From: an uncultured Muribaculaceae bacterium | GTDB lineage: Bacteria > Bacteroidota > Bacteroidia > Bacteroidales > Muribaculaceae | Length of the DNA: 55,076 nt | Direction: 5' to 3' | NCBI GenBank assembly: GCA_945931475.1 | Contig: CAMEPD010000005.1 | Coordinates: 1-55,076, forward strand | In this document: one piece after another, positions 2,126-49,088 of the stretch | Numbering within the stretch: position 1 is the stretch's first letter | How the letters are laid out: each line of letters begins with the position of its first letter | The notes under the pieces: generated by a model | Seen by the model: the letters and a program-made list of their open reading frames with translations, nothing else | Told to the model about the DNA's origin: nothing | Databases searched by the model: none | Made by a program: the position numbers and the translations under genes

Positions 2126-2965
2126 ATGCCGGCGCCAGGACACATACAACTGCAGGTGCTCATCGTCACCCATCAGCCCGCAGGGGCCGCGAGGGTTGCC
2201 GCGATGAATCTGCCGTGTGTCGCGGGCGTCGAATACCTTGTATCGTGGCAGAATCACGGCGACGCGCCTCTGCCCCCGGAACTGAACCGCGATGACGTGA
2301 CCGTACACCGCTTCGACCGCCCCGGGGTGAGTGCCAACCGCAACAACCTGCTTCGCTTGGCCTCAGCCCCCTTCGTGCTTGTGGGCGACGACGACCTGCA
2401 ATACTCCGCCGAGGGGCTCGCGGCCGTGCTCCGGTGCATGGAATCACACCCCGAGACTGACTACTTCTCGTTCCGCTACACGGGCGCCGACCGCAAAGGC
2501 TACCCCGACGCCGAGTGCAATCTCGCCCGATTGCCCCGAAATTTCTACCAGACGGCCTTCGAAGTGGGGCTCAACCGCCGTGGCCGCGCCGCCGCGCTGC
2601 AGTTCAGCGACTATTTCGGCCCTGGAGCGCCGCGTTTTGCGGCCTCGGAAGACGAGATGCTGCTGGCCTGCGCGCGCCATCAGGGGTTGAGCTGCCGGTT
2701 CTTCCCCCTGACAGTGGCGGAGCATCCGGGGCTCACCACCGGCAGCCGGCCCACCGCCACCCGGGGCATCCTGGCATCGAAAGGGGCCATGATAGGGCTT
2801 TGTTACCCCTGGAGCAGCCCCGCGCGGGTTGTTCTGGCATCGTGGCGCGAATCGCGCCGTGGCCGCATGGCGTTCCTACCGGCCCTCCGGGCCATTGCTT
2901 CGGGCGCAAGATACGCCCTTTTTCATCGTAACAAACTATTCAACAGCGGCAAAAATGAAAGCTGA
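2126..2965 (+). CDS. Glycosyltransferase family 2-like protein
   Basis: Protein of 279 aa with a GT-A-like start (LQVLIVTHQPAGAA), the family pattern GVSANRNNLLRLA and the acidic metal/nucleotide-binding motif VGDDDLQYS at about residues 89-97. A second acidic motif, ASEDEMLLACA, lies near residue 175. No membrane segments are evident. It starts 5 bases after the lipoprotein stop and overlaps the next glycosyltransferase by 11 bases, which suggests translational coupling. The donor and acceptor sugars cannot be read from the sequence. Confidence 0.75.
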   Translation: MPAPGHIQLQVLIVTHQPAGAARVAAMNLPCVAGVEYLVSWQNHGDAPLPPELNRDDVTVHRFDRPGVSANRNNLLRLASAPFVLVGDDDLQYSAEGLAAVLRCMESHPETDYFSFRYTGADRKGYPDAECNLARLPRNFYQTAFEVGLNRRGRAAALQFSDYFGPGAPRFAASEDEMLLACARHQGLSCRFFPLTVAEHPGLTTGSRPTATRGILASKGAMIGLCYPWSSPARVVLASWRESRRGRMAFLPALRAIASGARYALFHRNKLFNSGKNES

Positions 2966-3884
2966 ACTCTCGATAGTGATACCGGTCTACAACCGTGCCG
3001 GCATCGTGCAGCGGACTCTCGACAGTGTCCGTCACCAGACACTGCGGCCGCTCGATGTGATTTTGGTCGACAACAACTCCACCGACAACACCGCCGAGAT
3101 GCTCGCTGCATGGAAGGAGCACGTCGAAGGCCCGGGATTCTGCGTGAAAGTAGTAGCCGAAACGCAACCGGGAGCGGCCGCCGCGCGCAACCGCGGCCTC
3201 CGGGAGGTCGACACGCCGTACATGATGTTCTTCGACTCCGACGACCTGATGATGCCGCAGCACGCCGAAAGGGCGCTTCGTGCACTCAAAGCCCCGGATG
3301 CTCCCGACATCGTCGGCTGGGACGTCAAATACCTGATGCTCAATAATAAATGGCGCCGATGCCGCTTCTTCGAAAAGGATTACCTCTGGAATAATCTCAC
3401 ACACGGCATGATGTCGACGCTACGTTACGCCGCCCGCACATCGATTTTCCACAAAGCCGGGGGCTGGAACCCGGAGATTCGGGGTTGGGACGACATTGAG
3501 TTAGGCACCCGAATACTGCTTGCCGACCCGAAAATTGTCAAGCTGAAAGGCACACCCACCGTTACGGTATGCTCGCAGGCCGATTCCATCACCGGCGAAG
3601 CATACACACCGTCGTCGACCCTGTGGGAGCGTGCCCTCGACGAGATTGAAAACTCTCTGGCGCGCGCCGGCCATCCCACCGAAGCCGTTGAGCTGAAGCG
3701 CTGCGTGCTGGCCGGTCTCTACGTAGCCGAGGGCTCGCCCGAGGAGGGGATTCGCCTGTATGAGACCACCATACCGAAAACACCGTCGCGGTTCAAGCGC
3801 TCGATGTTGCGCTTCGCCTTCCGCTACACGGCTTTAGGCGGCCGTGGAGTCGCACGCCTGCTGCGGCCGTTCTTCAAAATCTGA
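2955..3884 (+). CDS. Glycosyltransferase family 2
   Basis: Protein of 309 aa starting MKAELSIVIPVYNRAG, the classic GT2 N-terminus. A nucleotide-binding loop (VDNNSTDNT), the DxD-type motif FFDSDDLMMP and the catalytic-base region GWDDIELGTR follow in order. The ATG at 2955 was chosen because it begins the GT2 fold; an in-frame upstream start would add 42 unrelated residues. The start lies inside the end of the preceding gene. The protein probably transfers a sugar from a nucleotide donor to a surface glycan at the inner face of the membrane. Confidence 0.85.
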   Translation: MKAELSIVIPVYNRAGIVQRTLDSVRHQTLRPLDVILVDNNSTDNTAEMLAAWKEHVEGPGFCVKVVAETQPGAAAARNRGLREVDTPYMMFFDSDDLMMPQHAERALRALKAPDAPDIVGWDVKYLMLNNKWRRCRFFEKDYLWNNLTHGMMSTLRYAARTSIFHKAGGWNPEIRGWDDIELGTRILLADPKIVKLKGTPTVTVCSQADSITGEAYTPSSTLWERALDEIENSLARAGHPTEAVELKRCVLAGLYVAEGSPEEGIRLYETTIPKTPSRFKRSMLRFAFRYTALGGRGVARLLRPFFKI

Positions 3885-3888
3885 CGTG

Positions 3889-4899
3889 ATGGGAAACGAC
3901 GAACGCCTGCCGAAAGTTTCGGTGATAATGACAGTCTATAATCAGGAGGGCACGCTTGCAGCAAGCCTCGATTCGGCGTTGGCCCAAATGACGAACTTCC
4001 CCTTTGAAATCGAGCTGGCCGACGACTGTTCCACCGACTCCACCCCCGAAATATGCCGTCGTTACGCCGAGCGCTATCCCGGCCGCATACGTTTGACACT
4101 CAATGCTAAAAATCTCGGCATTCCGCGCAACTACTTCGAGACGCTGCGCCGCTGCCGTGCACCCTATATAGCCGACCTCGCCGGCGATGACCTCTGGACC
4201 GACCCTCACAAACTGGCCCGTCAGGCGGCGATTCTCGACGCCGAGCCCGATGTGACGTTGGTGCACACAGCCTGGAAGTATCTTCACGGTGATACGGGCC
4301 TCACCTCCCCTACCCCGTTCACCGGCAATGAGCCGTGGCTGGCCCCGCGCATCGACGGCCGCACGCTCATCGCGCCGATGCTGTCGGTACACAATGCCAT
4401 GGCCGTGCACTCATGCACCGCCATGTTCCGCAAAGACACATTTCTTAAGGCATACGCCGAAGATTCCGAACTGTTTGACACCGACGAATACCGCTGTGAG
4501 GACCTACAGTTGCTCAGTTCCCTGGCATACGCCGGAACGGTGGCATACATACCGGATGTGACTCTCAGCTACCGCGTCGGTTCGGCGGGGCAGATTACCT
4601 CGACATCAGATTTCCGGCGCGCTTACCGCTTCAATTTCGGAACACTGCGGCTGCGGTTACGGCTTCAGTTGAAATACGGCATTGTTTCGGAGGCCATTAC
4701 CTCCAAAATCCGCACGCTCTGCGACTACACGGTGGGCCTGGCGTTTTTAGGCACCGACCGGGAGGCGCTTGCAGAAATGAGGGATTTTATCCGCGAAAAC
4801 CGGCTGAAAGTTTCCACACCCACCCGCTTCAAGCTGTTCCTGGGCTCTCATCCTACAATGCTTCGCGCCGTGCGACGCCTTGTCGGCAGCAAAGCGTAA
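3889..4899 (+). CDS. Glycosyltransferase family 2
   Basis: Protein of 336 aa beginning MGNDERLPKVSVIMTVYNQEG. GT2 hallmarks are VSVIMTVYNQ, the loop ADDCSTDSTPEI and the acidic motif DLAGDDLWTD near residue 105. ATG 3889 is 4 bases after the previous stop; an in-frame upstream ATG at 3844 would overlap the previous gene by 41 bases and adds no homology. It is the last of three consecutive GT2 genes. It ends 13 bases from the convergent thioesterase gene, with no visible terminator between them. Confidence 0.85.
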   Translation: MGNDERLPKVSVIMTVYNQEGTLAASLDSALAQMTNFPFEIELADDCSTDSTPEICRRYAERYPGRIRLTLNAKNLGIPRNYFETLRRCRAPYIADLAGDDLWTDPHKLARQAAILDAEPDVTLVHTAWKYLHGDTGLTSPTPFTGNEPWLAPRIDGRTLIAPMLSVHNAMAVHSCTAMFRKDTFLKAYAEDSELFDTDEYRCEDLQLLSSLAYAGTVAYIPDVTLSYRVGSAGQITSTSDFRRAYRFNFGTLRLRLRLQLKYGIVSEAITSKIRTLCDYTVGLAFLGTDREALAEMRDFIRENRLKVSTPTRFKLFLGSHPTMLRAVRRLVGSKA

Positions 4900-4912: not shown

Positions 4913-5686
4913 TTAGCGGGGCGAAAAACGCAACAGCGAGCGGCAAAGCACCTGACCATCATGGGCAAGTTCGGCACGGGTTACCGACTCGTCGCTCCCG
5001 GCAGCTTCATCGCCCTGCTCGCGCTGCAGGCGCACCTCCACCTCTTCGTCGAAGTAAGCTTCGCGCAGGTAGGCAATCTCGAAACGGGTCAGGCGGTATT
5101 TGTCGTGAAATCCGAGACTCCACTGATTCAACAGAAGCTCGATATAGCGCGACGAATTCACGTGGCGGTTGAAATCGAGGTCGCAGTAAGTGAAACGGTA
5201 ACGCTCGGCGGTGTAATCGCTGAGCGCCCGGGGCCGCTCCGATTTGGCTACGGGGCAGCGGTCGGGCTGTGCTACCTGCGAAATCCACTCCATACGCGAA
5301 ATGTCGGCGCCGCGGCGCGTCTCGGTGTCAAGCACGGCCCAAACGGTGCGTGCCCAACCGATTACCTTGCCATCGCCGTCGAAGATGCAGAAATCTCGCT
5401 CGGAAAAGAGCCGGTTTATCGAGCACACCCAGGTCTCAATCTCATAGAAATCGTTGACTCCGGGATAGACAGCCATCTCCACGGCAACGCGCGACAGCAC
5501 CCAGGTCTGGTGAAAGTCCTTGAGGTATGCCCAGCCGATGCCAAGTTCGTTGGCATGAAGCGTGGCTACTTCAATCAGCCTGTTAATCAGCAGCGTAATA
5601 GGCATACGCCCTTGTGGATTGCACTCGGCCGGAGTCAGGAAATACCGTTTTCTGAGCGTGGGTGATAATGTCTTATTGTCGGTCAT
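4913..5686 (-). CDS. Acyl-ACP thioesterase
   Basis: Protein of 257 aa resembling bacterial FatA/FatB-type thioesterases, which release fatty acids from acyl carrier protein. Two hotdog folds are suggested: residues about 10-130 (KRYFLTPAECNPQG at the start) and about 160-257. The second holds DLDFNRHVNSSRYIE, with the Asp, Asn and His expected in the active site. The ATG at 5686 was preferred because it forms an ATGA overlap with the preceding membrane-protein stop, like two other junctions in this run; the alternative at 5695 is TTG. Its position as last gene of the GT-C-like array is unexplained and might link fatty acid supply to a surface lipid. Confidence 0.85.
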   Translation of the reverse strand: MTDNKTLSPTLRKRYFLTPAECNPQGRMPITLLINRLIEVATLHANELGIGWAYLKDFHQTWVLSRVAVEMAVYPGVNDFYEIETWVCSINRLFSERDFCIFDGDGKVIGWARTVWAVLDTETRRGADISRMEWISQVAQPDRCPVAKSERPRALSDYTAERYRFTYCDLDFNRHVNSSRYIELLLNQWSLGFHDKYRLTRFEIAYLREAYFDEEVEVRLQREQGDEAAGSDESVTRAELAHDGQVLCRSLLRFSPR

Positions 5687-7377
5687 GGTTCGCAAATTTG
5701 TTCAAATTTAGCAATTTCGGCAGAATCTACCATGGATTTCGGCTCATATAGTGTATTTTCGCGAAGCACCTTCACCGGCACGAAGCCGTTGGCACGGAAC
5801 AGCGAATCAGTGCTCTCGAACGACAAAAACTGCAAATCTTCATTGCGCAGGAATACTGCATCGAGCTCCGATGTATATGCTTTCACCCAGCAGGCAATTT
5901 CCTCCGGGTCATAATAATGGAACCACTGCAGATGGGCCGGATTCTCTGAATTGTAGATATATTCGTAGACGTAGTGTGCGTTGCCGAAAAAGGCATACCG
6001 TATGCCATCGCGTCGGAGCTGAACGACTACCGGTGCCTCGCCGGAGAGCGACTGCCATTCCTCCGGACTATCGTAAAGCAGTTTATGATGAGGCAGTTCC
6101 TCATGTATCATCTGCCCGTCGCGATAACCGGCGACAAAATTATAACACTCATAAACACCTCTCGGGAATATCGTAAACAACATTATAAGAGCCACCACTC
6201 GACTGAATATCGGCTGCCGGTAACGGTAAACAATGGACATCAACAACGGGATACAATAGAAGAAACCAAAACGCTGCAGAATGCGGTCGCTACCCACCAC
6301 CGCTATTAATGAAAATGCAATCACCAACAACACACGCAAGGCATCTCTTTTTCCCAACCCGTGCGCGTAATGGCTAATGACCCATATCATTGCGAACAAT
6401 ACCAATGGCAGCAGATATAAACCAATGGCAACGGCGCCATGCCATTGAAAAATCATAACTATAAGGAATGAAACGGAAAGGCCAATGGCAAACCACCATC
6501 CTGTTCGGCCCCACATACGTCGATATACCAATGCCAATGCCGTGATACTCAAAATTGTAAAGTAAAAGAATGGAACACGCTTGAACTGCTCCAAATCATC
6601 GCAGGTCCATCTCATCAGGCGTCGGAGGTTATCGATGCCGGTATCATGCCCGGTGATGATATTTTCGGGCTTCCACGAATCGATATAGGCGCTGATGCTA
6701 CCCTTCATCAACAGGATCAGTGCCACAGATGCGACCGCAAACGCCGCGACGGCCCAAAGGATGTCGGGCAACGACCGGCGTCGCTCACCCCGGGGCCAAG
6801 CCAGACATATTGTCAGCAGCATCACCGGGAAGGCCACTATCGCCGGTATACGAGCCAATGTCAACGCCGCGCACAATGCACCGGCAATCAGCGCCTTAAC
6901 CCGCGTCGGGTGGTCGATGTAAGTCATCAGGCATACTAATAAGGCACTCATGAATGGGTATGCCCCCACATCCCATCCATAAAATTTAAAATAAAAGCTA
7001 TACGAGAGATAGACCACCAGGAATGCGGCGGTGCCGAGCGTCATGAACGCATTGCCGGTGCGCCGGTAATAATAAATCAGGGGTAACCCTATAGCCACAA
7101 TATAACACAATCGGGTCAGCAACCGCAATACTATCAGTTCGTTACCGAAGAGACTCACTGCCAGGTGACCCATATAGAACGACAGCATGGCTATGGGCGA
7201 ATCGCTGTAATACAAGCAGTTAAGCGCCTGATACCCTTCATCCTGAAGAAAAATAGTGCCGCGGAAACTCCCGGCTATAAAAAGCAGTAAGCTTGCTGCC
7301 ACGGCTATCCACATCACAATGAGCAGCCACCGGTGCTTCATGTCGATATATTTATGATGTCGTGAGGTCATTATCAT
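5683..7377 (-). CDS. Polytopic GT-C-like membrane protein, paralog 4 of the array
   Basis: Protein of 564 aa with a cytoplasmic start, about ten to twelve hydrophobic segments in residues 17-410 and a soluble C-terminal domain of about 150 residues. The loop after the first segment carries LQDEGYQALNC (D46, E47), in the place where GT-C glycosyltransferases (ArnT/PMT/GT39 type) have their acidic catalytic residue. Motifs shared with its three neighbours are KPENIITGHD, VGSDRILQRFGF, AHLQWFHYYD and SLFRANGFVPVK. It overlaps the upstream paralog by ATGA. I infer transfer of a sugar or similar group from a lipid carrier on the periplasmic side; the substrate is unknown and no precise family can be assigned. 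Confidence 0.7.
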   Translation of the reverse strand: MIMTSRHHKYIDMKHRWLLIVMWIAVAASLLLFIAGSFRGTIFLQDEGYQALNCLYYSDSPIAMLSFYMGHLAVSLFGNELIVLRLLTRLCYIVAIGLPLIYYYRRTGNAFMTLGTAAFLVVYLSYSFYFKFYGWDVGAYPFMSALLVCLMTYIDHPTRVKALIAGALCAALTLARIPAIVAFPVMLLTICLAWPRGERRRSLPDILWAVAAFAVASVALILLMKGSISAYIDSWKPENIITGHDTGIDNLRRLMRWTCDDLEQFKRVPFFYFTILSITALALVYRRMWGRTGWWFAIGLSVSFLIVMIFQWHGAVAIGLYLLPLVLFAMIWVISHYAHGLGKRDALRVLLVIAFSLIAVVGSDRILQRFGFFYCIPLLMSIVYRYRQPIFSRVVALIMLFTIFPRGVYECYNFVAGYRDGQMIHEELPHHKLLYDSPEEWQSLSGEAPVVVQLRRDGIRYAFFGNAHYVYEYIYNSENPAHLQWFHYYDPEEIACWVKAYTSELDAVFLRNEDLQFLSFESTDSLFRANGFVPVKVLRENTLYEPKSMVDSAEIAKFEQICEP

Positions 7378-9038
7378 TGCAAATTTTTAAACGTGGCAGA
7401 GTCGTTTTCACTGATATAAAGCGTAAAGTTTTTCAACCGTTTCACCGGCACAAAGCCGTTGGCGCGGAACAGGCTGTCGGCCTTCTCGACCTTCCGGAAC
7501 TCGCTTTCGGGATTCTCCACAAACACAGCATCCATCTCGCGGGTGTATGCCCTCACCCATTGGGCCACCTGCTCGTCGTCGTAATAGTGGAACCACTGCA
7601 GATGCGCCACCCTGTCAGCGTTGAATGTATATTCGTAAAGATAGCGCTGGTCACCGAAAAAAGCATATTTAAGGCCCCTACGACGCAACTCAGCTGCCGC
7701 ATCTCCTTCCTGCTGCACTTCTGCCCAGTTTTCGGGTTTGTCGTATAGATACTGATGATGAGGCACATCGGCATGAACCCAATTCGGATTGACGAGCTTC
7801 TTCACAGAGTTGAAGGTGTCGTAGCAGATTACCGGCGCTATGGTGAAAAGCATCGACAGTGCGATAGCCACATTCAGCATGGCCGATTTATAGCGGTAAA
7901 CCATAAAGACCATCGCAGGGATTGTATATATAAAGCCGAAGCGCACTAACAGCTGGTCGCTTCCCACAACCGGCACAAGCATAAACGCGGTGATTAACAG
8001 CACCTTCAAGGTATCACCCCGCGCCAGCCCCCCGGCTGAGATGCTGATTACGAGCAGCATCACATAGGTCAGCTCAGTCAGGAAGAGGTCGCCCACTGTC
8101 ACCTGACCGTGCCAGTCGAAACGTATGGCGATATAAAACACCGTGGTCAGCACTACGGCAAACCGCCAGCCTCCGGTACCCCATACTTTCCTGTAGATCA
8201 ATGCCAGAATCACCAATACCACAATCTGTGCATAGAACACCGTCTCGTTGATCCATCGCGTCAGGTTGAGCCGGGCGCTTTTTATCGAGTGCCATAGATT
8301 ATCCCAACCGGTGTGCCCTGTGATAATGTTTTCGGGCTTCCACACGTCGATGTAGGCGCTCACACTCCCCTTCATTATCAGGATGAGCGTCAGGGCTGTA
8401 GCGACGAACGCCACTAAGGAGATGCCCACATCCCTGAACGAGCCGCGGCGGCTGCCACGCGGCCACGACAGATATATTGTCAGCACCATCACCGGCAGGG
8501 TCACCCCCGCCGGAATGCGTGCCAGGGTCAGCGAGGCACACAGCACACCCGACAACAACGCTTTCACCCGCGCAGGGCGGTCGGTATATGTCAGAAGGCA
8601 CACCATCAACGCGCTCTCAAACGGGTAAGCCGCTGAGTCCCAAGTATAAAAACTCAGCAGGAAGCTTGGTTCTATATAATTAATCAGGTAGACAGCCATC
8701 CCGATGGCCCACCACCTGTTGCCCGTACGCCGGTAAAAGTATATCAACGGAAAGGCGATAGTCAGCAGATACATCAGATGGCTGAGCAGACGTAGCACAT
8801 AAATGCCGTCGCCGAACAGGCGTATGGCAATATTCCCGATGTAAAATGAAAGCATTGCAATGGGCGATTGACCGTAATCCATACAGTTCAGTGCCTGATA
8901 ACCTTCGTCCTGGTCGCTGATCGTTTTCTGGAATGCCCCGACGAAAAACACCACAACCGACACAACGAGCGCCGCCCACATCATCGCTATCATCCATGTG
9001 CGCTTCCTTTCTCCGGTTTGTACCGTTATCTTGTTCAT
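7374..9038 (-). CDS. Polytopic GT-C-like membrane protein, paralog 3 of the array
   Basis: Protein of 554 aa with the same architecture as its neighbours. The first segment is at about residues 17-36, then SDQDEGYQALNC with D44 and E45, further hydrophobic segments to about residue 400, and a soluble tail. Shared motifs are KPENIITGH, VVGSDQLLVRFGF, YEYTFNADRVAHLQWFHYYD and SLFRANGFVPVKRL. Start and stop form ATGA overlaps with both flanking paralogs (9035-9038 and 7374-7377), so translation is probably coupled. It is recognisable as a GT-C-fold candidate only by topology and the loop acidic pair; substrate unknown. Confidence 0.7.
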   Translation of the reverse strand: MNKITVQTGERKRTWMIAMMWAALVVSVVVFFVGAFQKTISDQDEGYQALNCMDYGQSPIAMLSFYIGNIAIRLFGDGIYVLRLLSHLMYLLTIAFPLIYFYRRTGNRWWAIGMAVYLINYIEPSFLLSFYTWDSAAYPFESALMVCLLTYTDRPARVKALLSGVLCASLTLARIPAGVTLPVMVLTIYLSWPRGSRRGSFRDVGISLVAFVATALTLILIMKGSVSAYIDVWKPENIITGHTGWDNLWHSIKSARLNLTRWINETVFYAQIVVLVILALIYRKVWGTGGWRFAVVLTTVFYIAIRFDWHGQVTVGDLFLTELTYVMLLVISISAGGLARGDTLKVLLITAFMLVPVVGSDQLLVRFGFIYTIPAMVFMVYRYKSAMLNVAIALSMLFTIAPVICYDTFNSVKKLVNPNWVHADVPHHQYLYDKPENWAEVQQEGDAAAELRRRGLKYAFFGDQRYLYEYTFNADRVAHLQWFHYYDDEQVAQWVRAYTREMDAVFVENPESEFRKVEKADSLFRANGFVPVKRLKNFTLYISENDSATFKNLQ

Positions 9039-10714
9039 CGTTTGTCGGTCTTTAGCTTTTGGACGCTATATGTGTCATTCTCAGCCATATAGAGGGTATA
9101 GTCGTTCATGCGTTTTACGGGCACAAAGCCGTTGGCGCGGAACAACGAGTCAACCTCGCTGAGCGTCAGGGAATGACTATCAATGTTGTGAACGAAAACA
9201 GCGTCCTGCTCGCGAGTATAGGCCGCCACCCACTGTGCTACCTGCTCGTAGACAAAGTAGTGAAACCACTGTATATGTGCCGGTGTCTGCGAATTATAGG
9301 TATATTCCATCACGTAACGACCGTCGCCGAAGAATACAAATTTCACGCCTTCGCGCCTTAGTTTTTGTGCCACATCACCCGCATCTCGCAATTCGGCCCA
9401 TTTGTGCGGATAATCGTAAATCAGCTTATGATGAGGAATATCTTGATGTACAAGTTTTCCTTCATCGAGTTTCTCAATCCGGTCATAGATGTCGTAAACG
9501 AATACCGACACCATCAAATACGCCATCACCAGCATCAGAAACCGATTGAATATCTGCGACTTGTAACGATATATCATGTACATAAGGAGCGGCAGGCAGT
9601 AGAAGAACCCGAACCGATGGAATACGTGGTCGGAACCGACTACAGGCACGAGCACAAAACCGATAATCAGCAGCAGCCGGATGCCGTCACATTTGGCCAA
9701 ACCTTTGCAACAATAGCTTATCACACAAAGTATTGCGAGCATCGTCAGCGGTACGATATAGACGCCGGGCGTAACATTGCCTCGCCACAGGAATTGCATC
9801 ACAATGAAGAAAAGAAGTGTAAGGCCGACTATCAGCCCGCTCCGGCGCGGCCATAATTTGCAGCATAGCATGGTTAACGCCGCCACCAAAAGTACCTGGC
9901 AGCTGTAGGAGGCGATTATCGACCACTCTGTTAAGTCATGCCTGAATGAAGCCATAAAAACTTTCATGCTCTCGCGCCTAATATCATGCCCTGTGATGAT
10001 ATTGTCGGGACTCCATGACGCGATGTATGCGGCGATACTCCCTTTCATAATGAATATCAGAACGATAGCCGTCAGCATGAAACTCAGTAGCGCTATTCCG
10101 CTGTCGCGAAGCCAACGGCGCGTACTCCGCGGATACGCAAATATGACGGCGAGAATCATCACCGGCAACGACGCTACGGCAGTTATGCGAGCAAGGATGA
10201 GAGCCGCACAGAGCGCTCCGGCCGTAGCAGCTTTTACACCCGAAGGCCGGTCGAGGTAGGTCATCAGACACACCACTAAGGCACTTAAGAATGGATAAGC
10301 ACATGTATCCCAACTGAATATAAGGTGGGTCATCCAGTTGTGACAGAAAAAATTCACGAGGAAAAATGCCATCCACAACGTCCAGAGGGCGTTGCCGGTG
10401 CGCCGGTAGAAGTAAATCAACGGAATAGCTATGGACAGGAGCAGACAGCTGCAGCCGAGGCTCCGCAGCACTATTAACTCGTTGCCGAAAATCCGCATTG
10501 CCAAATTTCCGATATAAAACGTGAGCATCCCAAGGGGCGAATCGCCGTAGTACAAGCAGTTAAGTGCCTGATATCCTTCATCCTGCGTTTCGGTCACACC
10601 GAAGAAGCACTTGCTGAAAAGAAGGGCCACCGACACAATGAGCGCCGCCCACATCGCTACTATCAGCAGTGTGTGCGTCCGATTTTCGGGTTTTCGTGTC
10701 AGCGTAAGTGTCAT
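9035..10714 (-). CDS. Polytopic GT-C-like membrane protein, paralog 2 of the array
   Basis: Protein of 559 aa. The first segment (about residues 16-36) is followed by TQDEGYQALNCLYYGDS with D45 and E46. Then come multiple hydrophobic segments, the shared SPDNIITGHD and VGSDHVFHRFGFFYCLP motifs, and a soluble tail with FFGDGRYVMEYTYNSQTP and SLFRANGFVPVKRM. It starts 24 bases after the stop of the first paralog and overlaps the next one by ATGA. By eye, paralogs 2, 3 and 4 are closer to each other than to paralog 1. Confidence 0.7.
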   Translation of the reverse strand: MTLTLTRKPENRTHTLLIVAMWAALIVSVALLFSKCFFGVTETQDEGYQALNCLYYGDSPLGMLTFYIGNLAMRIFGNELIVLRSLGCSCLLLSIAIPLIYFYRRTGNALWTLWMAFFLVNFFCHNWMTHLIFSWDTCAYPFLSALVVCLMTYLDRPSGVKAATAGALCAALILARITAVASLPVMILAVIFAYPRSTRRWLRDSGIALLSFMLTAIVLIFIMKGSIAAYIASWSPDNIITGHDIRRESMKVFMASFRHDLTEWSIIASYSCQVLLVAALTMLCCKLWPRRSGLIVGLTLLFFIVMQFLWRGNVTPGVYIVPLTMLAILCVISYCCKGLAKCDGIRLLLIIGFVLVPVVGSDHVFHRFGFFYCLPLLMYMIYRYKSQIFNRFLMLVMAYLMVSVFVYDIYDRIEKLDEGKLVHQDIPHHKLIYDYPHKWAELRDAGDVAQKLRREGVKFVFFGDGRYVMEYTYNSQTPAHIQWFHYFVYEQVAQWVAAYTREQDAVFVHNIDSHSLTLSEVDSLFRANGFVPVKRMNDYTLYMAENDTYSVQKLKTDKR

Positions 10715-10738
10715 TGTCAGTGAATACCGTATGCAAAT

Positions 10739-12379
10739 TTAAGGTTTTTTCAGCGACCAGGCGTCGTAATCACTGTTGATTCTTTCGCAGGTAGCGCCTA
10801 ATGAGGTGGCATAGTCGCGCACATCATCGTACTGCACGTAATCCATATAGTGACTGTAGACTATCACCACGTCATACCGGCGCAGATATTCGGCAAAGTT
10901 TGCGAGTGTCTCATCGCGGTCGTAATAATGGTACATCTGGAATGCGTAAGGTTTCTCATCCATATACTGATATGTATACGGATAGCGGTGGTCGCCGTAA
11001 AAAGCGAAGTGAACACCACGGTCTTTCAGCCGTTCCACATAGCCGGATAATTCTAATCCCGGTGGCATATATTCCACCTTTGAAAACCGTATGCCGACAT
11101 AGCGAGGATTATAATCCTCGCCGCGCACCTCGTTTTTGCAGAACCGGCTGAAAATCATACAGTCGTAGCATAGACTCGGTATCAGCGTGAAAATCAGCAG
11201 CCACTTCAGCACACCGTTGCGATATGGATACAGAAGCACCATCAGCACCGGTATGCCGTAAATAAGATAGATATGCCAGAGGATATAATCAGAACCTATT
11301 GCGGGCACGAATGCCATCAGCACCACAGTGAGCACCGTCAGTGAGCCTTTCAGACTGATGTTCCTTCGGAACAGCTTGAGAACCGGAAGATAGAGCAACA
11401 AAAACACCGGCACGTAATAAAGGCTGAGCGTATCATCCTTAATCACGGTGAGTCGGCGCCATACGAGGTAGAGCAGTATCACCGGTACAACCAGCAAACC
11501 TTTCCGCCCGAAAACCTTGATATAGCTTACGGTCAGGAGGGCTAAAGCCAAAATTGCGAAATAATATTTGGCTCCCAAAACTTCCTGATGCCCTACCTCC
11601 TTAAACCGGCGCATGAATTCGCCGAAATCATTCAGGTTATGACCGTTGATTATGTTGTCGGGGGTCCATGCGGCAATATAGGCACCCACACTCCCTTTCA
11701 TCAGCAGTATCAGAAGGAGCAGAGTCGCCGTGAAGCATATTGCGCTGATGCCTAACGCTTTCCATCTGAATGGCTGCGGGCTGCGTTTCACGAGTATTAT
11801 CAGAGCAGTTATCGGCACGGCAAGTATCACCGACGGGATGCGGGCCAGCGCAATGAGCGCGCAGAGAATTCCGGCCCCTGCAGCCTTGCGCATCGAGGGG
11901 CTGTCGATATATGCCGCCAGGGCCACGAGCAGGCCGCTTTCATACGGGAGTGCGCCGGTGTCCCAGCTCCAGTACATTTTCGATGACCCCCGGAAAAAGG
12001 TAATCAGCAGAGACATCAGGAAGAGCGCCCATGGTGCATTTCGGGTGCGCCGGTAGAAATACACCACCGGAATCGCAAGACCCACTACAATATAGATATA
12101 GCTCAGCACTCTCAGAGAAAGCAGTGTATCCCCGAAAATTCGTTGTGCCAGATTCCCGGTGTAGAATGTAAGCATTCCTAATGGTCCATCGCCGTAATAC
12201 CGGCAGTTCAGGGCCATATACATTTCATCGGTATAGTGCATCACACCGTTGAACACCTCGCTGAAGAACATCATCAAGGTCACACCCAGAACGACACTCC
12301 ACAGTATCACGGCCCCGCGGCGTGGCAGCAGCGAGGTACTTCCCGTTTTTATCTGAGATTGAATCGTGACTAAAGGCAT
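10739..12379 (-). CDS. Polytopic GT-C-like membrane protein, paralog 1 of the array (most divergent)
   Basis: Protein of 546 aa from ATG 12379. A longer frame begins at 12439, but that codon sits inside the intrinsic terminator hairpin of the ribosomal operon, so the internal ATG is preferred. It keeps the loop acidic pair (HYTDEMYMALNC, D51 and E52), TPDNIINGHN, IGSDYILWHIYLIYGIP and a soluble tail with FYGDHRYPYTYQYMDEKP. It lacks the RANGFVPVK ending of the other three. No consensus promoter was found between it and rplQ, so it may depend on read-through past the terminator or on an atypical promoter. Confidence 0.7.
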   Translation of the reverse strand: MPLVTIQSQIKTGSTSLLPRRGAVILWSVVLGVTLMMFFSEVFNGVMHYTDEMYMALNCRYYGDGPLGMLTFYTGNLAQRIFGDTLLSLRVLSYIYIVVGLAIPVVYFYRRTRNAPWALFLMSLLITFFRGSSKMYWSWDTGALPYESGLLVALAAYIDSPSMRKAAGAGILCALIALARIPSVILAVPITALIILVKRSPQPFRWKALGISAICFTATLLLLILLMKGSVGAYIAAWTPDNIINGHNLNDFGEFMRRFKEVGHQEVLGAKYYFAILALALLTVSYIKVFGRKGLLVVPVILLYLVWRRLTVIKDDTLSLYYVPVFLLLYLPVLKLFRRNISLKGSLTVLTVVLMAFVPAIGSDYILWHIYLIYGIPVLMVLLYPYRNGVLKWLLIFTLIPSLCYDCMIFSRFCKNEVRGEDYNPRYVGIRFSKVEYMPPGLELSGYVERLKDRGVHFAFYGDHRYPYTYQYMDEKPYAFQMYHYYDRDETLANFAEYLRRYDVVIVYSHYMDYVQYDDVRDYATSLGATCERINSDYDAWSLKKP

Positions 12380-12397
12380 AGTGCGATGCTTTTCGGT

Positions 12398-12444
12398 AAA
12401 AAAAGCAGAGCGGGGAACACCGACAGGCGGTGTCTCCACTCTGC
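12398..12444 (-). terminator. Intrinsic terminator of the ribosomal protein operon
   Basis: On the minus strand GCAGAG...CTCTGC and ACACCG...CGGTGT pair into one long stem (12405-12444) with a short loop, followed by seven T residues (12404-12398). It lies about 50 bases after the rplQ stop. Confidence 0.9.
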
Positions 12445-12493
12445 ATTTTGCTTTATGCTGTACGGCCGGTGGCCGGCCGGTGCATTGGCGGAA

Positions 12494-12997
12494 TTACTCA
12501 GCCTTGGCTTCCTCAGCTGCGGGTGCAGCTGCTTCGGGAGCGGCAGCTTCGGCTTTGGGAGCCTCGGCGGCTGCGGCTTTCGAACCGCGGCGGGTGCGGC
12601 GGGTCTTCTTGCCTTCCTTCTTGTCCTTGAGCATGTTTTCGTTGTAGTCAACTAGCTCGATGAAGCAGGTCTTGGCGTTGTCGCCCAGACGGTTGCCGGT
12701 CTTGAGGATGCGGGTGTAGCCGCCGGGACGGTCGGCGATCTTCTGCGAGATTTCGCGGAAGAGTTCGGTGACGGCTTCCTTGTTCTGAAGGTAAGAGAAG
12801 ACCAGGCGGCGGTTGGCCATCGAGTCGTTCTTTGCGCGGTTAATCAGGGGCTCGGCGTAAACGCGGAGGGCTTTGGCTTTTGCCAGGGTGGTGAAGATAC
12901 GCTTGTGCTTGATAAGCGAAATCGTCATGTTGGCAAGTAAAGCGTCGCGGTGAGCAGCCTTGCGCGAGAGGTGGTTGAAGCTTTTATTGTGTCTCAT
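12494..12997 (-). CDS. rplQ: 50S ribosomal protein L17 (bL17) with long C-terminal tail
   Basis: bL17, 167 aa. The core (about residues 1-115, starting [20 protein letters not shown]) is standard and lines the exit-tunnel side of the large subunit. The tail is unusual: a basic stretch ([15 protein letters not shown]) followed by about 28 residues of almost only Ala, Glu, Pro and Lys. E. coli L17 is 127 aa, so about 40 residues are extra. It is the last gene of the ribosomal cluster, 8 bases after rpoA. Confidence 0.97.
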
Positions 12998-36656: not shown

Positions 36657-36981
36657 TGGTCTATATTAGTTAAACGTTATTGATTTCGAGTGCAAAGTTA
36701 CGGCTTTTCAGCCAATCGCGCAAACCGATTGAACGTGCCGGGCACAACGCCACCTGAAGACCGCCAGAAGTAGCAGAGTTGCAATAATGGACGTCGTCTA
36801 TGAAGATGGCGCCGGGAACCACGGAAACGGTAAATGTTAGAAAAAAGTTAAAACTCATATAAACAGGTTGATTTGTCGCATTCTGTGGTAATTTTTTCGT
36901 AATTTTGCACGTTATCTTTCAAAGCACCGAAGATGCGGGATGCGTCGCCCGGTCGCGCTCCCCGGCGCCGATTTTCAGTCC
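36657..36981. other. Divergent intergenic region between prfB and the sulfatase-fold gene
   Basis: 325 bases. It holds the prfB promoter (36693-36724, minus) and a -7 like TAATTTTG on the plus strand at 36900-36907 without a clear -33 element, which may start the downstream gene with a leader of about 70 bases. No gene is supported. Confidence 0.7.
36693..36724 (-). promoter_or_regulatory. Promoter of prfB
   Basis: On the minus strand TTTG (36724-36721), a 20-base spacer, then TAACTTTG (36700-36693). The leader to ATG 36656 would be about 30 bases. Confidence 0.8.
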
Positions 36982-38817
36982 ATGAGAAAAGCAGTAGTAA
37001 AATTCATACTCGTTTTCGCCATCTACGCCACTCTGTTTGTAGTGCAAAAGCCTCTGTTTATGGAGGTTTACGCTACGGAACTGGGGCTGGAGACGTTTGG
37101 CGACCGCCTGGCGGTGCTGTGGCACGGCCTGAGCATGGACTTTGCCGTAGCCGGATACCTAACCGTCATACCTGCGATACTGATAATCTGTATGTTATGG
37201 ACGCGGAAACGCTGGCCACAGGTTGTCATGGAGGTCTATATAGCCCTGTCGGTCGCCGTCATCTCGGCCGTAATGTGCCTTGACCTGATACTTTACAGCT
37301 TCTGGGGATTCCGCATCGACATGACCCCCTTCTTCTACTTCGCCACGTCGCCGTCGGCCGCCCTGGCCTCGGCTACCTGGTGGGAGTGCCTGGCCGGAGC
37401 CACCGGATTCCTGCTGGCCTGCGCCCTGATGTGGTGGGTAACACGTCGCGTCATCAATGCCGTGAAGATAGCGCCCGACCGTTCGTGGAAGAGCACGGCG
37501 GTGATGGTGCTCCTGACAGCGGCACTGTTCATCCCCATCCGCGGCAGCGTGACGGTGTCGACCATGAACCCGAGCCGCGCCTATTTCAGCGCGCGCCGCG
37601 GACTGAATCATGCCGCCACCAATCCGGTGTTCAACCTGCTCTATTCGGCAACGCACCAGAACGATTTCGCCTCACAATACCGCTTCATGGACGACGCCGA
37701 AGCCGCCCGCGAATTCCGCGCCATGGGTGAAATCGACGGCCGGAAAGAGAGCGACAGCACCTTCACAGCCACCGAGCGCCCCGATGTGGTGTTCGTTATC
37801 CTCGAAAGCTTCTCGAGTCACCTTATGCCGTCGCTCGGCGGCGAAGCCATCGCCACGGGACTCGACTCGATAGCCGGCAACGGCCTGCTTTTCACACAGT
37901 TCTACGCCAACTCGTTCCGCACCGACCGCGCCCTGCCGTCGATACTCAGCGCCCTGCCCGGGCAACCCTCGACCTCAATTCTGAAATACGTCGACAAAAT
38001 CGAACGGTTGCCGTCGTGGCCCGGCGAACTCGCCAAAGCCGGTTACGCCCTGAATTACTACTACGGAGGCGACACAAATTTCACCAACATGCAGGCCTAT
38101 CTGATGAGCATGGGCTTCTCCAATGTGGTGAGCGACAGCGATTTCTCCATCAGCCAGAAAGCATCGAAATGGGGAGCGCCCGACCATCTGGTGTTCGAAC
38201 GCGCCCTGCGCGACATCACCGGACGCCGCGCCACAACGCCGCAGCTCGACGTCATTCAGACCTCGTCGAGCCACGAACCGTTCGAGGTGCCCTACTCCAA
38301 CCCCCGCTTCGCCGACAACGAACGCGCCAACGCCTTCGCATACACCGACTCGTGTCTGACAGCCTTCGTCAACGCCCTCAGCCGCTCCCCGCGGTGGCAA
38401 CAGACCCTCGTGGTAATAGTACCCGACCATTACGGCTGCTATCCCAAAGACCTGAAAACAATGCCCGAGCGGCACGCCATCCCATTGGTAATCACCGGTG
38501 GAGCGCTCACCCGAAAGGGGCGCGTCGACGCCCTCGGCTCGCAGGCCGACATCGCCGCCACCCTGCTCGGCGCTCTGAAGCTCGACTATAGTGCATTCCC
38601 TTTCAGCCGAAACCTGCTGGCCGGAAACGCCGTGCCCGTAGCCGTGATGACCGAACCGGGCTCCATAACCATCGTCACCCCCGACGGGTACCTCACCTGG
38701 AGCTGCGACGGCCGCGCCAGGGAAGACACCAACCTTCCGCCAGAAAGCGCCGGGCGGCTCGAACGGAGCGCCCAAGCCTATCTACAAACCCTGTATACAT
38801 ATATAGCAAATCTGTAA
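36982..38817 (+). CDS. LTA synthase-like sulfatase-fold membrane transferase
   Basis: Protein of 611 aa with about five N-terminal membrane segments (residues 5-190) and a periplasmic alkaline phosphatase/sulfatase-type domain (about 255-560). The domain has DVVFVILESFSSHLMPSLGG and the nucleophile region SFRTDRALPSILSALPG with its Thr; metal-binding VIVPDHYG lies near residue 490. In Gram-positives such enzymes transfer phosphoglycerol; in Bacteroidetes related proteins probably transfer phosphoglycerol or phosphoethanolamine to surface glycans or lipids. ATG 36982 (MRKAVVKF) was chosen as the start of the first membrane helix. A PAP2 gene follows after 10 bases. Confidence 0.8.
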   Translation: MRKAVVKFILVFAIYATLFVVQKPLFMEVYATELGLETFGDRLAVLWHGLSMDFAVAGYLTVIPAILIICMLWTRKRWPQVVMEVYIALSVAVISAVMCLDLILYSFWGFRIDMTPFFYFATSPSAALASATWWECLAGATGFLLACALMWWVTRRVINAVKIAPDRSWKSTAVMVLLTAALFIPIRGSVTVSTMNPSRAYFSARRGLNHAATNPVFNLLYSATHQNDFASQYRFMDDAEAAREFRAMGEIDGRKESDSTFTATERPDVVFVILESFSSHLMPSLGGEAIATGLDSIAGNGLLFTQFYANSFRTDRALPSILSALPGQPSTSILKYVDKIERLPSWPGELAKAGYALNYYYGGDTNFTNMQAYLMSMGFSNVVSDSDFSISQKASKWGAPDHLVFERALRDITGRRATTPQLDVIQTSSSHEPFEVPYSNPRFADNERANAFAYTDSCLTAFVNALSRSPRWQQTLVVIVPDHYGCYPKDLKTMPERHAIPLVITGGALTRKGRVDALGSQADIAATLLGALKLDYSAFPFSRNLLAGNAVPVAVMTEPGSITIVTPDGYLTWSCDGRAREDTNLPPESAGRLERSAQAYLQTLYTYIANL

Positions 38818-43080: not shown

Positions 43081-46000
43081 ATGATAAGACATCTGATTTC
43101 ATCCGCAGCCGCTCTGGTGCTGACTGTCTCGCCCGTCTGGGCACAGCTCACGCGCACCGACCGAAGCACGCCGCAAAACTTCCAGCCCGCCGCGGCAGAA
43201 GGTGTACCCCTGCCGAAGGGTTTCGACAAATTCGTACGTCCGGCCGTAAGCCACGAGCCGGCTGCCATCGGCCACACACTCCCCGTGTTGTCGACCAAGT
43301 CAAAAACCCCGTCGAAAGCTTCGGGCCGCACTGTCCTGAGAGCACCGATGGCCAAGGCCACAGTCAAGGCTACCTCGCTTTCAGGTTATCTCTCCTACTC
43401 CGAGAGTACCTACCAGTCTCAGGGCTGGTACAACGTAACCTGGCCCACCCCCACCTTAGTATGGGCGAACCCCTCCTCGTCGAACCGCAGCTACACCTGC
43501 GGCTTCATGCGCGGCGGTGAACTCTACGCATTCTACACCCACCGCACCACCACAGCTCTGCTCGCTGCCGGTATCTGCCGCCTCGACCCAGCCAACGGCA
43601 CAGTGCTCGAGAACACCCCGTTCGACATCTTCGAGGGGTATTCGTGCATAGTGACCGACGCCGCCTACGACCCCGTGAACGATATAGCTTACGTGGTCAC
43701 CAGCAATGACGCCGGCACTCAGTACATCCTGCAGACCTACAACCCCACCACCGGTGTATTCACCCCGGCAGGCATCAACTTCGGTGACGAAAACAGCTCC
43801 GACCTTCCCATGACCATGGCCTGGTCGCCCGCCGACAACGCAGTCTACATCCTTACCTTCGGCAAGGAGATGAAGCGCTACGACGCCACCGGCAAGAAAT
43901 TCGTCAAAACCGGCACCAGCACCTACGACTTCGGCGATTACTCCGGAATCATGACCTATTCGCCCAAGGACAACGCATTCGTGGGCCTATTGCCCGGCTA
44001 CGACAACAGCGATGACGACTGGGACTACGGCTACGAAGCCCCGGCCAAAAGCGCCAAGTCGAGTGCCACGGGCGAATGCTGCGACGTGCTGCTCATCACC
44101 CCAACGGGCACGACATCATACGTCGGCACATTCACCTACGACTCACAATGGTCGATTCTCCACGCATCCGACCCCTACGTGGTCCCCGGCGCCCCCGGAA
44201 CCGTGACGCTCACGTCGAACTTCGTTGACGACGCCACCTCAGGCACCATCACGGTAAACCTCCCCGCAAAGACTGCCGACGGCTCGGCCATCAACGGCCG
44301 CGTATACCTGCAGGTGAAGGTCGACGGCGAAGCCCTCGGAGGCACCACACCCTCGGGCACACCCGGAAGCACCGCCACCATCAGCCTAAACCTCTCCGAA
44401 GGCGAGCACACCATCGCCGTAACCCCATATCTGCTTGGCGATGACGGATATATCTACGGCACACCGGCATTACTGCACGATTACTTCGGCTACGACACCC
44501 CCGCAGCCCCGGCCAACGTAACCCTAACCAACAACAAGGTGACATGGAACGCCGTGACCGCCGGCGTACACAACGGTTACATCAAGGCTGCCGACGTGCG
44601 CTACAACGTCTTCGTTGACGGCGTAGCCATGAACAGCGCTCCCGTGAGCGGCACATCGCTCGACATCACCCTCCCCTCGGCCGGCGGAATCTCACACAAG
44701 GCCGAAGTGGTCGCTACTGTCAACGGCAAGAGCTCCGAACCCGGTTCATCGGCACCGCTCTACGTCACCGGGCCGCTCAACCTTCCCGTCTACATCGCCC
44801 CTGAAGAGGGTGAGACCGAACTCGCGCAGACCGTCATCGATATGTTCACCATCGTGAAGAATCCCGCCGTTACAAGCACCGCGCAGCACTGGCAGTACGA
44901 CCTTCAGGACCCGCATACCGGCGGATTCTACTGCCTCAACCCCACCACTCCCGAGGGTAGCGGCAACTGCAACGAGTGGCTCTTCCTTCCGGCCATCAAC
45001 TTCAACGACGCCAACTCCTTCTACCGCCTTCAGATGGAGGTCTGGGCAGCCAACCACTACTTCTCTGAGGATGAGACCTACGAAGTAGCCCTCTGCGCCG
45101 CTCCCGACGGCAAGAATCCCGTTGTAATCAAAGAGGCCGAAACCATCCACAAAGCCGTCGATTTCCAGACCGCCGAAACAATGTTCAAAGTCCCCTCGGC
45201 CGGCGTATGGTACATCGGTATACATTACATTACCCCGGTTGACGCCGGATTCCGCCTGTATGCACGCCGCTTCCGTGTCGAGAAGGAACAGAGCACCGGC
45301 GAAGCCCCCGGAAAGGTCACCGACCTCACCGCAGAAGCCTGTCCGCAGGGCGAACTCGCCGCAAATGTCAGCTTCCGAATGCCTCTGGTAAGCATCACCG
45401 GCGCTGACCTCGGCGCCGCCACCGACATCACGGCCACCGTTGCCACCGAATCCGGCAGCGTCACCGTCAGCGGCAAACCCGGTACTCAGCTCACCGCCAA
45501 AGTACCCGCCAACCAGGGCAACAACACCGTGAAGGTCACCACATCGACAGCTGCCGGCACAGGCCTGATTGCCGAGACCACGGTATACTGCGGCGTTTAC
45601 GCTCCCGGCGACGTGACCCTCACCTCCTCCGTCTCCGACGACAACCGCACCGTTACCCTCAACTGGACTCTCGACGACTATAACGCCGACGGACAGTATG
45701 CCGGTGCCGACAAGTGCACATTCACCATCTACCGCCGCACAGCCGAGGGAGAATGGGGTATAGCTGCAGCCGGTGTCCAGGGCAACACTTGGTCATTCAC
45801 CACCACACGCACCGACCAGGACATTTATCAGTTCGGAGTCGCAGCCGTCAATGCCGCCGGCTCATCGGAGACACTGAGCGCCACCGGCGTTATCCTCGGC
45901 ACTCCCTACAATATCCCCTTCCGCGAAACATTCCCCCTCAACGGCGAAAACATTGAGATGAAGGAACCCATCATGCTCGAAAGTCTTTCGTACCTCGGCG

Positions 46001-48095: not shown

Positions 48096-49088
48096 ATGTG
48101 GTTAACATCCTCATCCATAGGTAGGAAATTCGTCATGGCCCTGTCCGGCGCTTTCCTTGTCCTATTCGTGACGTTTCACGCGTTGATGAATGGCGTAGCC
48201 ATCTTCTGGCCCACCGGCTACAATATGGTCTGCGAGTTCCTCGGCGCCAACTGGTATGCGCTCGTTGGCTCCTTAGTGCTCGGTGCTGTTGTCATTCTCC
48301 ACATCGTTTACGCCATCTGGCTGACCCTGCAGAACCGCGCCGCCCGCGGTCACGAACGTTACAACGTAACCTCGCGTCCGCCTCAGGTTGAATGGGCTTC
48401 GAAGAACATGCTCATTCTCGGCTTCGTGATCCTCGCCTTCCTTGGTCTTCACCTGGTGAACTTCTGGGCCAAGATGCAGCTCGCCGAAATCTGCGGTACT
48501 CCTGCCGCCGAGCCCATGGAAATCAACGGTCAGTCCGTAGCCGTTTCGCCTGCCGCCGGTACCTACTTCCTGCAGCAGACTTTCTCCAACGGTATCTTCC
48601 TGGCATGCTACATCGTGGCCTTCATCGCACTGTGGTTCCACATGACTCACGGTTTCTGGTCGATGTTCCAGAGCGCCGGCTGGGATAACCGCACTTGGCT
48701 CCCCCGCCTCAAGACTATCGCCAACTGGTACACCACCATCATCATCGCTCTGTTCGTTGCCGAGGCTATCGTGTTCGCCGTTCAGGCCAAGAGCGACTAC
48801 TACACCACCAACGACAAGCTTCAGGAGCAGTACATCGAGATGGCCGAGGGTCACAGCGGCGCTGAAAGCACCGTAGCTATCACCGACAAAGCCACTCCCT
48901 GCGGTATGCCCGAATGCGACAACCCTGCCTGCACTCCCGACTGCACATCAGCCGTTTGCGGCAACCCCAACTGCGAGAAGATGAAAGCCGCAGCATGCCC
49001 CGACAAGGGCAAGGATTGCCCTAATGCCGCCGCCGGCAACTGTCCCAACGCAGGCAAATGCCCCAACGCTAACGATACTATTAACTAA
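48096..49088 (+). CDS. sdhC: Succinate dehydrogenase/fumarate reductase cytochrome b558 subunit with Cys-rich tail
   Basis: Protein of 330 aa; usual family length is about 220-240. Five hydrophobic helices (about 12-38, 53-78, 103-125, 163-190, 206-230) carry candidate haem-ligand histidines H28, H69, H119 and H182/H185, as in di-haem b558 subunits. The core anchors the flavoprotein and iron-sulfur subunits and moves electrons to or from quinone. From about residue 250 an extra tail follows with ten cysteines (269, 274, 279, 283, 288, 293, 301, 308, 316, 322) and several CPN words. The tail resembles a metal-binding segment; its function is unknown. sdhA starts 16 bases downstream. Confidence 0.88.
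   Translation: MWLTSSSIGRKFVMALSGAFLVLFVTFHALMNGVAIFWPTGYNMVCEFLGANWYALVGSLVLGAVVILHIVYAIWLTLQNRAARGHERYNVTSRPPQVEWASKNMLILGFVILAFLGLHLVNFWAKMQLAEICGTPAAEPMEINGQSVAVSPAAGTYFLQQTFSNGIFLACYIVAFIALWFHMTHGFWSMFQSAGWDNRTWLPRLKTIANWYTTIIIALFVAEAIVFAVQAKSDYYTTNDKLQEQYIEMAEGHSGAESTVAITDKATPCGMPECDNPACTPDCTSAVCGNPNCEKMKAAACPDKGKDCPNAAAGNCPNAGKCPNANDTIN

Follow-up and report, generated by a model that had tools for sequence, protein, structure and literature searches.

A tandem array of four probable GT-C glycosyltransferases in an uncultured Muribaculaceae bacterium

The gene array

When analyzing a 55,076-nucleotide stretch of DNA from an uncultured Muribaculaceae bacterium (GenBank assembly GCA_945931475.1, contig CAMEPD010000005.1, positions 1 to 55,076 of the forward strand; hereafter, the window), we studied a tandem array of four genes that encode membrane proteins resembling GT-C glycosyltransferases. 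The array sits between rplQ and an acyl-acyl carrier protein (ACP) thioesterase gene and consists of the following genes, called from their open reading frames (ORFs) and translations.

5683..7377, minus strand: GT-C-like paralogue P0001, 564 amino acids
7374..9038, minus strand: GT-C-like paralogue P0002, 554 amino acids
9035..10714, minus strand: GT-C-like paralogue P0003, 559 amino acids
10739..12379, minus strand: GT-C-like paralogue P0004, 546 amino acids from the ATG at 12379; first transcribed and most diverged

An initial annotation of this DNA had described four co-directional tandem paralogues of 546 to 564 amino acids, three of them closer to each other than to the fourth. ORFs, translations, and pairwise identities bear out both statements, with P0001 to P0003 being 47 to 50% identical versus 30 to 37% for P0004. 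Identity to P0001 is 50% for P0002, 47% for P0003, and 30% for P0004, and a search of the whole genome with P0003 returned P0002 at 49% (E = 2.6e-172), P0001 at 48% (3.6e-169), and P0004 at 37% (1e-86). A GTG codon 60 bases upstream of the ATG at 12379 is an alternative start for P0004 and would give 566 amino acids. The overlaps proposed earlier exist at two junctions, P0001/P0002 and P0002/P0003 (4 bp each), but P0003 and P0004 are separated by a gap of 24 bp. A six-frame search of the same genome with P0003 found six places, the four window copies and two further copies at 55343-58601 of contig C1.

The motifs listed in the initial annotation hold less evenly, mostly on account of P0004. 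The Asp-Glu pair after the first helix (D45-E46; P0003 numbering is used throughout) is present in all four proteins. PxNIITGH is exact in three and reads PDNIINGH in P0004; VGSD...RFGF is found in three, while P0004 has IGSD and lacks RFGF. P0002 and P0003 match FFGDxRYxxEY exactly, whereas P0001 reads FFGNAHYVYEY and P0004 FYGDHRYPYTY; QWFHY, shared by three proteins, is QMYHY in P0004. The copies may plausibly act on related substrates.

Relation to ArnT-like and PMT_2 proteins

Relatives were gathered from genomes of the same genus, family, and order. Below, G000 is the window's genome and other G numbers are the genomes of relatives, L numbers are fetched loci, and C1, C3, and C80 are contigs of the window's genome. 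Family alignments contained 25 members (A2) or 42 members (A5); A5 has no row for the L083 protein or for the fourth copy of the L039 array.

When A5 was compared by hhalign with an ArnT-like profile of 12 rows, built from Escherichia coli K-12 ArnT and 11 proteins of the genus, the match was 94.1% with an E value of 1.2e-7 over 252 collinear columns, running from transmembrane helix 1 (TM1) to TM8. The controls, a three-row transporter profile (sodium-symporter-like, a label given by eye) and a SecY profile, gave 0.14% (E = 0.42) and 0.17% (E = 0.35), respectively. The L083 protein matched A5 at 98.3% (E = 2.3e-14) and itself passes the curated cutoff of Pfam PMT_2 (PF13231; 26.1 bits) with 31.7 bits. 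In a PMT_2 search of the 14 genus genomes, the cutoff was also passed by the window genome's own paralogue at C1:55514 (30.1 bits) and by two members in G081 (35.3 and 26.8 bits). PMT_2 was matched at E <= 1 by 11 of the 25 members in A2, with a best E value of 2.1e-7.

Several results weigh against this assignment. None of the window proteins passes the PMT_2 cutoff: in the genome search, P0001 reached 25.1 bits and P0002 23.9 bits, and in hmmscan against Pfam, P0003 matched PMT_2 below the cutoff (E = 0.0024, 18.5 bits), no family was found for P0001 or P0002 at E <= 1, and P0004 had no PMT_2 match. The hidden Markov model search of each protein that the initial annotation had proposed therefore left the window's four at subthreshold matches or none, the passes falling to the paralogue and relatives. 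Scans of ten additional members and relatives gave two matches to PMT_2, L082 (below the cutoff) and L083. A5 matched E. coli ArnT alone weakly (22%, E = 1e-3), and the control profiles are shallower than the ArnT-like one, which somewhat favors its match over theirs. Sequence searches against solved structures gave no hits for alignments A1 and A2 and 21 hits for A5, with a best E value of 0.77 and no glycosyltransferase among them; many were ribosomal protein S2 against the tail.

NCBIfam yielded nothing beyond chance for the four window proteins or the 25 members, and no ArnT model was among the hits at E <= 1. ArnT (GT83) proper was rejected, and the family was not filed as such, because there was no ArnT equivalog match and no arn gene context, the flanks being rplQ, the thioesterase gene, and three GT2 glycosyltransferase genes.

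That the window proteins themselves pass no curated family and have no significant match among solved structures is what would be expected if they belonged to some other polytopic class, such as transporters, polymerases, or ligases. The ArnT-like match with its negative controls and the PMT_2 passes of the paralogue and relatives speak against this, and we regard it as extremely improbable. Judged by sequence, the proteins are best filed as remote GT-C relatives near ArnT and PMT_2, an unnamed branch with unusual local expansion. The initial annotation, which could name no precise known family, is narrowed in this way, and its proposal of a periplasmic glycosyltransferase or polymer-modifying family is supported in part, as a GT-C assignment, by the profile match with controls, the PMT_2 passes in the paralogue and relatives, hydropathy, and conserved residues. 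The array is not a new kind of system.

Predicted topology and conserved residues

Hydropathy and the positive-inside rule predict 13 helices for P0003, with the N terminus inside and a tail of about 150 residues outside, instead of the roughly 11 helices counted earlier. The automatic pick gave 10 to 12 segments per protein, and two pairs, TM5/TM6 and TM11/TM12, were split by hand. ArnT likewise has 13 helices and an outer tail. According to excerpts of a study of these enzymes, GT-C_A proteins combine 7 to 13 TM helices with an extracytoplasmic domain that is small and usually follows TM1 (PMC11127046), a range that includes the 13 helices predicted here.

Among the 42 rows of A5, D45 and H243 are invariant, and position 362 is D or N in all 42; E46 is kept in 38, Y48 in 39, W135 in 40, R176 in 41, N238 in 32, and G360 in 41. 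Conservation reaches 75% or more in 24 columns, of which 12 fall on the 108 outer-loop positions versus 12 on the 451 positions elsewhere (Fisher P = 5e-4, with helix limits partly set by hand). The latter 12 lie mostly at outer helix ends, as judged by eye, with P157, G166, and P375 as clear exceptions. According to excerpts of another study, GT-C_A enzymes share a conserved core of TM1 to TM7 with two juxtamembrane helices, and in all of them the tip of juxtamembrane helix 1, which follows TM1, bears an essential Asp (PMC12041299). In the family, D45 lies in the predicted first outer loop in 42 of 42 rows.

In the alignment with the ArnT-like proteins, E46, Y48, D136, and R176 are paired with the invariant residues E39, R41, D143, and K185, respectively, and N238 is paired with N249, which is nearly invariant. 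Two observations do not favor the assignment. D45 faces Gly and H243 faces Leu, so the family's two invariant residues have no ArnT-like counterpart, and position 136 is less constant than its neighbor, with D in 32 rows, N in 7, and another residue in 3.

Candidate donor machinery

A GT2 gene resembling gtrB, arnC, and pgfS adjoins a GT-C gene or lies one gene off in 6 of 34 family loci (L081, L082, L085, L087, L091, and L092), where it stands beside single-copy relatives. The 34 loci are the window, L037 to L051, and L081 to L098; L052 to L054 are duplicates. The two genes overlap by 4 bp in L085 and L087, overlap as called in L092, and are convergent in L091, and in L081 and L082 one gene, methyltransferase-like by eye, lies between them. 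L083 is a seventh locus, with two genes in between. L085 and L087 probably represent one event and L081 and L082 another. In NCBIfam, the GT2 proteins of L081, L085, L087, and L092 matched PgfS (1e-63 to 1e-71) and ArnC (1e-32 to 1e-47), below the equivalog cutoffs, and in Pfam those of L087, L091, and L092 were all Glycos_transf_2.

The window's genome has two GtrB-like matches, one on C80, which is 67% identical to the L087 protein and is encoded beside a gene read by eye as proS, and a weaker one on C3. It also has two GtrA matches. GtrB-like matches (E <= 1e-15) were found in all 14 genus genomes, as were GtrA matches, whereas the family was found in 3; the donor machinery is therefore core and the family accessory.

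The same counts mean that GtrB and the family are not tied, which weakens a functional connection, and the array itself contains no gtrB or gtrA gene. Moreover, in L085 and L087 the GT-C gene lies between gtrB and the gene read as proS, and in L103 to L107 (5 of 8 loci looked at) gtrB adjoins the proS-read gene without a GT-C gene, so the adjacency in L085 and L087 may result from an insertion.

As a separate observation, a GtrB-like gene lies close to an ArnT-like GT-C gene (PMT_2 over the cutoff) in L108 (446-4103) and L109 (6061-13001), together with a third gene that, by eye, resembles one for a polysaccharide deacetylase. A pathway like that for 4-amino-4-deoxy-L-arabinose (Ara4N) is possible in these two genus members.

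Distribution, arrays, and history

We surveyed the family in larger genome samples, as the initial annotation had suggested for copy number. Within Muribaculaceae, 48 of 397 genomes matched at E <= 1e-3, 26 of these at E <= 1e-30 (counted by hand). In the order sample, 20 of 295 genomes matched at E <= 1e-3, the window's own included, with three others below 1e-15, and a phylum sample gave no match at E <= 1e-10 in 394 other genomes. At most three or four candidates were scored per genome in these surveys, so their copy numbers are to be read as "at least." The family is patchy in Muribaculaceae.

Arrays of two or more long members, mostly grown locally, were found in 8 of the 34 loci: the window (4 copies), L037 (2), L038 (3), L039 (4), L040 (5, one broken), L041 (2), L049 (3 plus one partial near the contig end), and L093 (5). 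In a tree of 51 rows made by a quick method, in which 18 of 48 inner branches are weak, P0001 to P0003 form a clade with 100% support, as do the five L093 copies, and the four window copies form another with the three copies of the G081 array at the thioesterase locus (100%). The three G081 copies on their own reach only 89%. These array clades indicate that local duplication was repeated, though not separately in every array. No clear sign of gene conversion between copies was found, the longest exact match being 25 nucleotides and third positions being 18 to 66% identical per 50-codon block.

The other two copies of the window's genome (L037:5780-12620) come directly after porU, the gene for the type IX sortase (PorU model, E = 1.3e-267), and so does the G081 array L039. 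In the tree, members of the porU-linked arrays from G000 and G081 intermingle, with one pair crossing the genomes at 100%, so part of this duplication predates the split. This position invites the alternative that the proteins are GT-C enzymes of the protein mannosyltransferase kind, glycosylating exported proteins, such as type IX or lipoprotein cargo, and not a glycan or lipid. PMT_2 is the family's best Pfam match, and the adjacent polyprenyl-phosphate glycosyltransferases resemble PgfS, which, judging by the title and abstract opening of one report, belongs to an operon modifying surface proteins of Streptococcus mutans (PMC5856776). However, PMT_2 also takes in ArnT-like enzymes, and the ArnT-like core proteins of the genus score higher (up to 56.7 bits). 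All 14 genus genomes carry porU but 3 carry the family, and a tie to PorU was rejected on this ground. The four window proteins have no further Pfam or NCBIfam domain. A protein acceptor is possible, but we consider this alternative as a whole rather unlikely.

The G081 copies at the thioesterase locus are 27 to 33% identical to P0003, versus 70% for the adjoining thioesterase. Other identities between G000 and G081 are 91% for GreA, 81% for HIT, 68% for PorU, 66% for a thioredoxin-like protein, and 63, 57, and 53% for the GT2 proteins GT2b, GT2c, and GT2a. The family thus diverges far faster than its neighbors, although the GT-C genes compared here are not proven one-to-one orthologues. Such divergence could also mean that the copies are catalytically dead, serving as regulators, chaperones, or decoys, or decaying after duplication. 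Two loci agree with this, the second of which also weighs against the GT-C assignment. In L040 (8430-10060), a frameshift near 8790-8850 breaks one member into two overlapping ORFs, either an assembly error or a pseudogene. The fourth copy of L039 (11360-13006) is strongly diverged, scoring 127 bits against the family profile; its Asp45 is replaced by Thr, and the WD motif is missing. It is perhaps inactive, and with it the family also holds probable nonfunctional copies. In the window, by contrast, all four genes are open over their full length and retain D45, E46, Y48, W135, D136, R176, and H243, and conservation in the family centers on the predicted active side. For the window array, this alternative is very unlikely.

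Neighboring genes and control signals

The array is flanked by the following features.

2126..4899, plus strand: three GT2 genes, convergent with the array (Pfam Glycos_transf_2): GT2a, 2126-2965; GT2b, about 2955-3884; GT2c, 3889-4899
4913..5695, minus strand: acyl-ACP thioesterase gene, 3' of the array and overlapping P0001 by 13 bp (Pfam Acyl-ACP_TE, E = 7.3e-23; C-terminal domain, 2.2e-12)
12398..12444, minus strand: terminator-like hairpin with U run, after rplQ and 18 bases upstream of the P0004 start codon

The thioesterase gene is core, and a functional tie to it was rejected, since it occurs in 14 of 14 genus genomes. In 12 loci from genomes with no array at this place, no family member or GT2b or GT2c homologue was found near it, with several contigs ending soon after. 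G081 keeps the order greA-HIT-thioredoxin-GT2a-GT2b-GT2c near its array. An LptD-like gene (L052:8686-11562; Pfam LptD_2, E = 1.2e-165) lies there between the array with its thioesterase gene and the GT2 genes and is absent at the window locus. The GT2 genes and this LptD-like gene point to envelope glycans but prove nothing, and the neighborhood does not single out an acceptor.

GT2c matched at E <= 1e-20 in 5 of 14 genus genomes, with values below 1e-80 in G000, G081, and G137, the three genomes with the family; the weak matches in G111 and G097 cover about 130 to 140 residues. Co-occurrence of GT2c and the family was not accepted as a link, since the G137 copy shows 43% identity and lies on a different contig from the GT-C genes of that genome. 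At L120:2318-5023, this GT2c-like gene is convergent with a gene for a 558-amino-acid hydrophobic protein that also has an Asp-Asp pair after its first helix and, read by eye, possibly represents another GT-C-like family.

The hairpin folds at -26.6 kcal/mol (z = -5.06 versus shuffles) and was missed by a simple consensus scan. Simple scans for sigma-70 promoters and terminators were near background (11 versus 9.0 and 10 versus 8.0). Phase variation by an invertible promoter was rejected, as no inverted repeats were found at 11900-12800.

Elsewhere in the window, a 1,562-amino-acid ORF (43081-47769, plus strand) and the next ORF, of 330 amino acids (48096-49088), have no Pfam match at E <= 1e-5. 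A 625-amino-acid protein with a sulfatase domain (36940-38817, plus strand; Pfam Sulfatase, 3.3e-31) might act as a phosphotransferase on lipids of the envelope.

Discussion

Taken with the evidence above, the array probably encodes four diverged, lineage-specific GT-C enzymes of the kind represented by ArnT and PMT_2, which arose through local duplication and would move a sugar from undecaprenyl phosphate to an acceptor in the envelope. Each copy would adopt the predicted GT-C fold in the inner membrane with its 13 helices. A GtrB/ArnC-like enzyme encoded elsewhere in the genome would make the donor, an undecaprenyl-phosphate sugar, on the cytoplasmic side, and a GtrA-like protein or another flippase would carry it across the membrane. 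Asp45-Glu46-x-Tyr48 in the first outer loop would provide catalysis, and Trp135-Asp136, Arg176, and Asn238/His243 on the outer side would bind the phosphate or sugar of the donor. In the periplasm, one sugar would then be passed, in the direction from lipid to acceptor, to a glycan or glycolipid of the envelope.

The closest known proteins are ArnT (GT83) and the ArnT-like core proteins of the genus, with which the family shares remote homology over TM1 to TM8 and, at E46, D136, R176, and N238, alignment with Glu, Asp, Lys, and Asn residues that are invariant or nearly so. It differs from ArnT in a shorter first loop with Asp-Glu-x-Tyr, in an identity of 13% over aligned columns, in its own motifs (WD, NIITGH, and GSD/GSN), and in its tandem arrays.

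The Gtr systems of Shigella and Salmonella, as well as GT136, share the proposed logic, to judge from excerpts of the literature. GtrA, GtrB, and Gtr(type) are flippase, polyprenyl-phosphate-sugar synthase, and GT-C transferase (PMC11127046), and a GtrB-like gene is near the GT-C gene in the six family loci named above. The window differs from the Gtr systems in that the genome has its synthase and flippase matches at other places, in that four GT-C copies are grouped, and in its flanks, which are ribosomal genes, a thioesterase gene, and GT2 genes, not phage. In S. mutans, two GT-C transferases, SccM and SccQ, put glucose at different positions of one polymer, as excerpts of PMC11754754 describe. 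The likeness drawn from that description is the presence of several GT-C enzymes in one strain. SccM and SccQ are each paired with their own donor synthase in one cluster, whereas the window's four copies have no adjoining GtrB-like gene.

Among the papers listed on Muribaculaceae glycosyltransferases and on protein O-glycosylation in Bacteroides, none seemed, judged by title and abstract opening, to describe the family, and no paper was found that joins GT-C glycosyltransferase, polyprenyl phosphate, and Bacteroidetes. With this work, an unnamed membrane family of Muribaculaceae is assigned to the probable GT-C glycosyltransferases, with donor machinery predicted, and one family is seen to build local arrays repeatedly that diverge much faster than adjoining core genes. 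Tentatively, and with more doubt than confidence, the arrays might be loci for the diversification of surface glycans, in which a core supply of undecaprenyl-phosphate sugar, common to the genus, feeds a fast-changing, locally multiplied set of GT-C enzymes. If this is true, each copy would decorate a different position, and strains or species would differ in envelope glycan without phase-variable promoters or swaps of whole loci. If it is lipopolysaccharide or capsule that is decorated, the arrays would give this family of gut bacteria a genetically simple way to diversify its surface.

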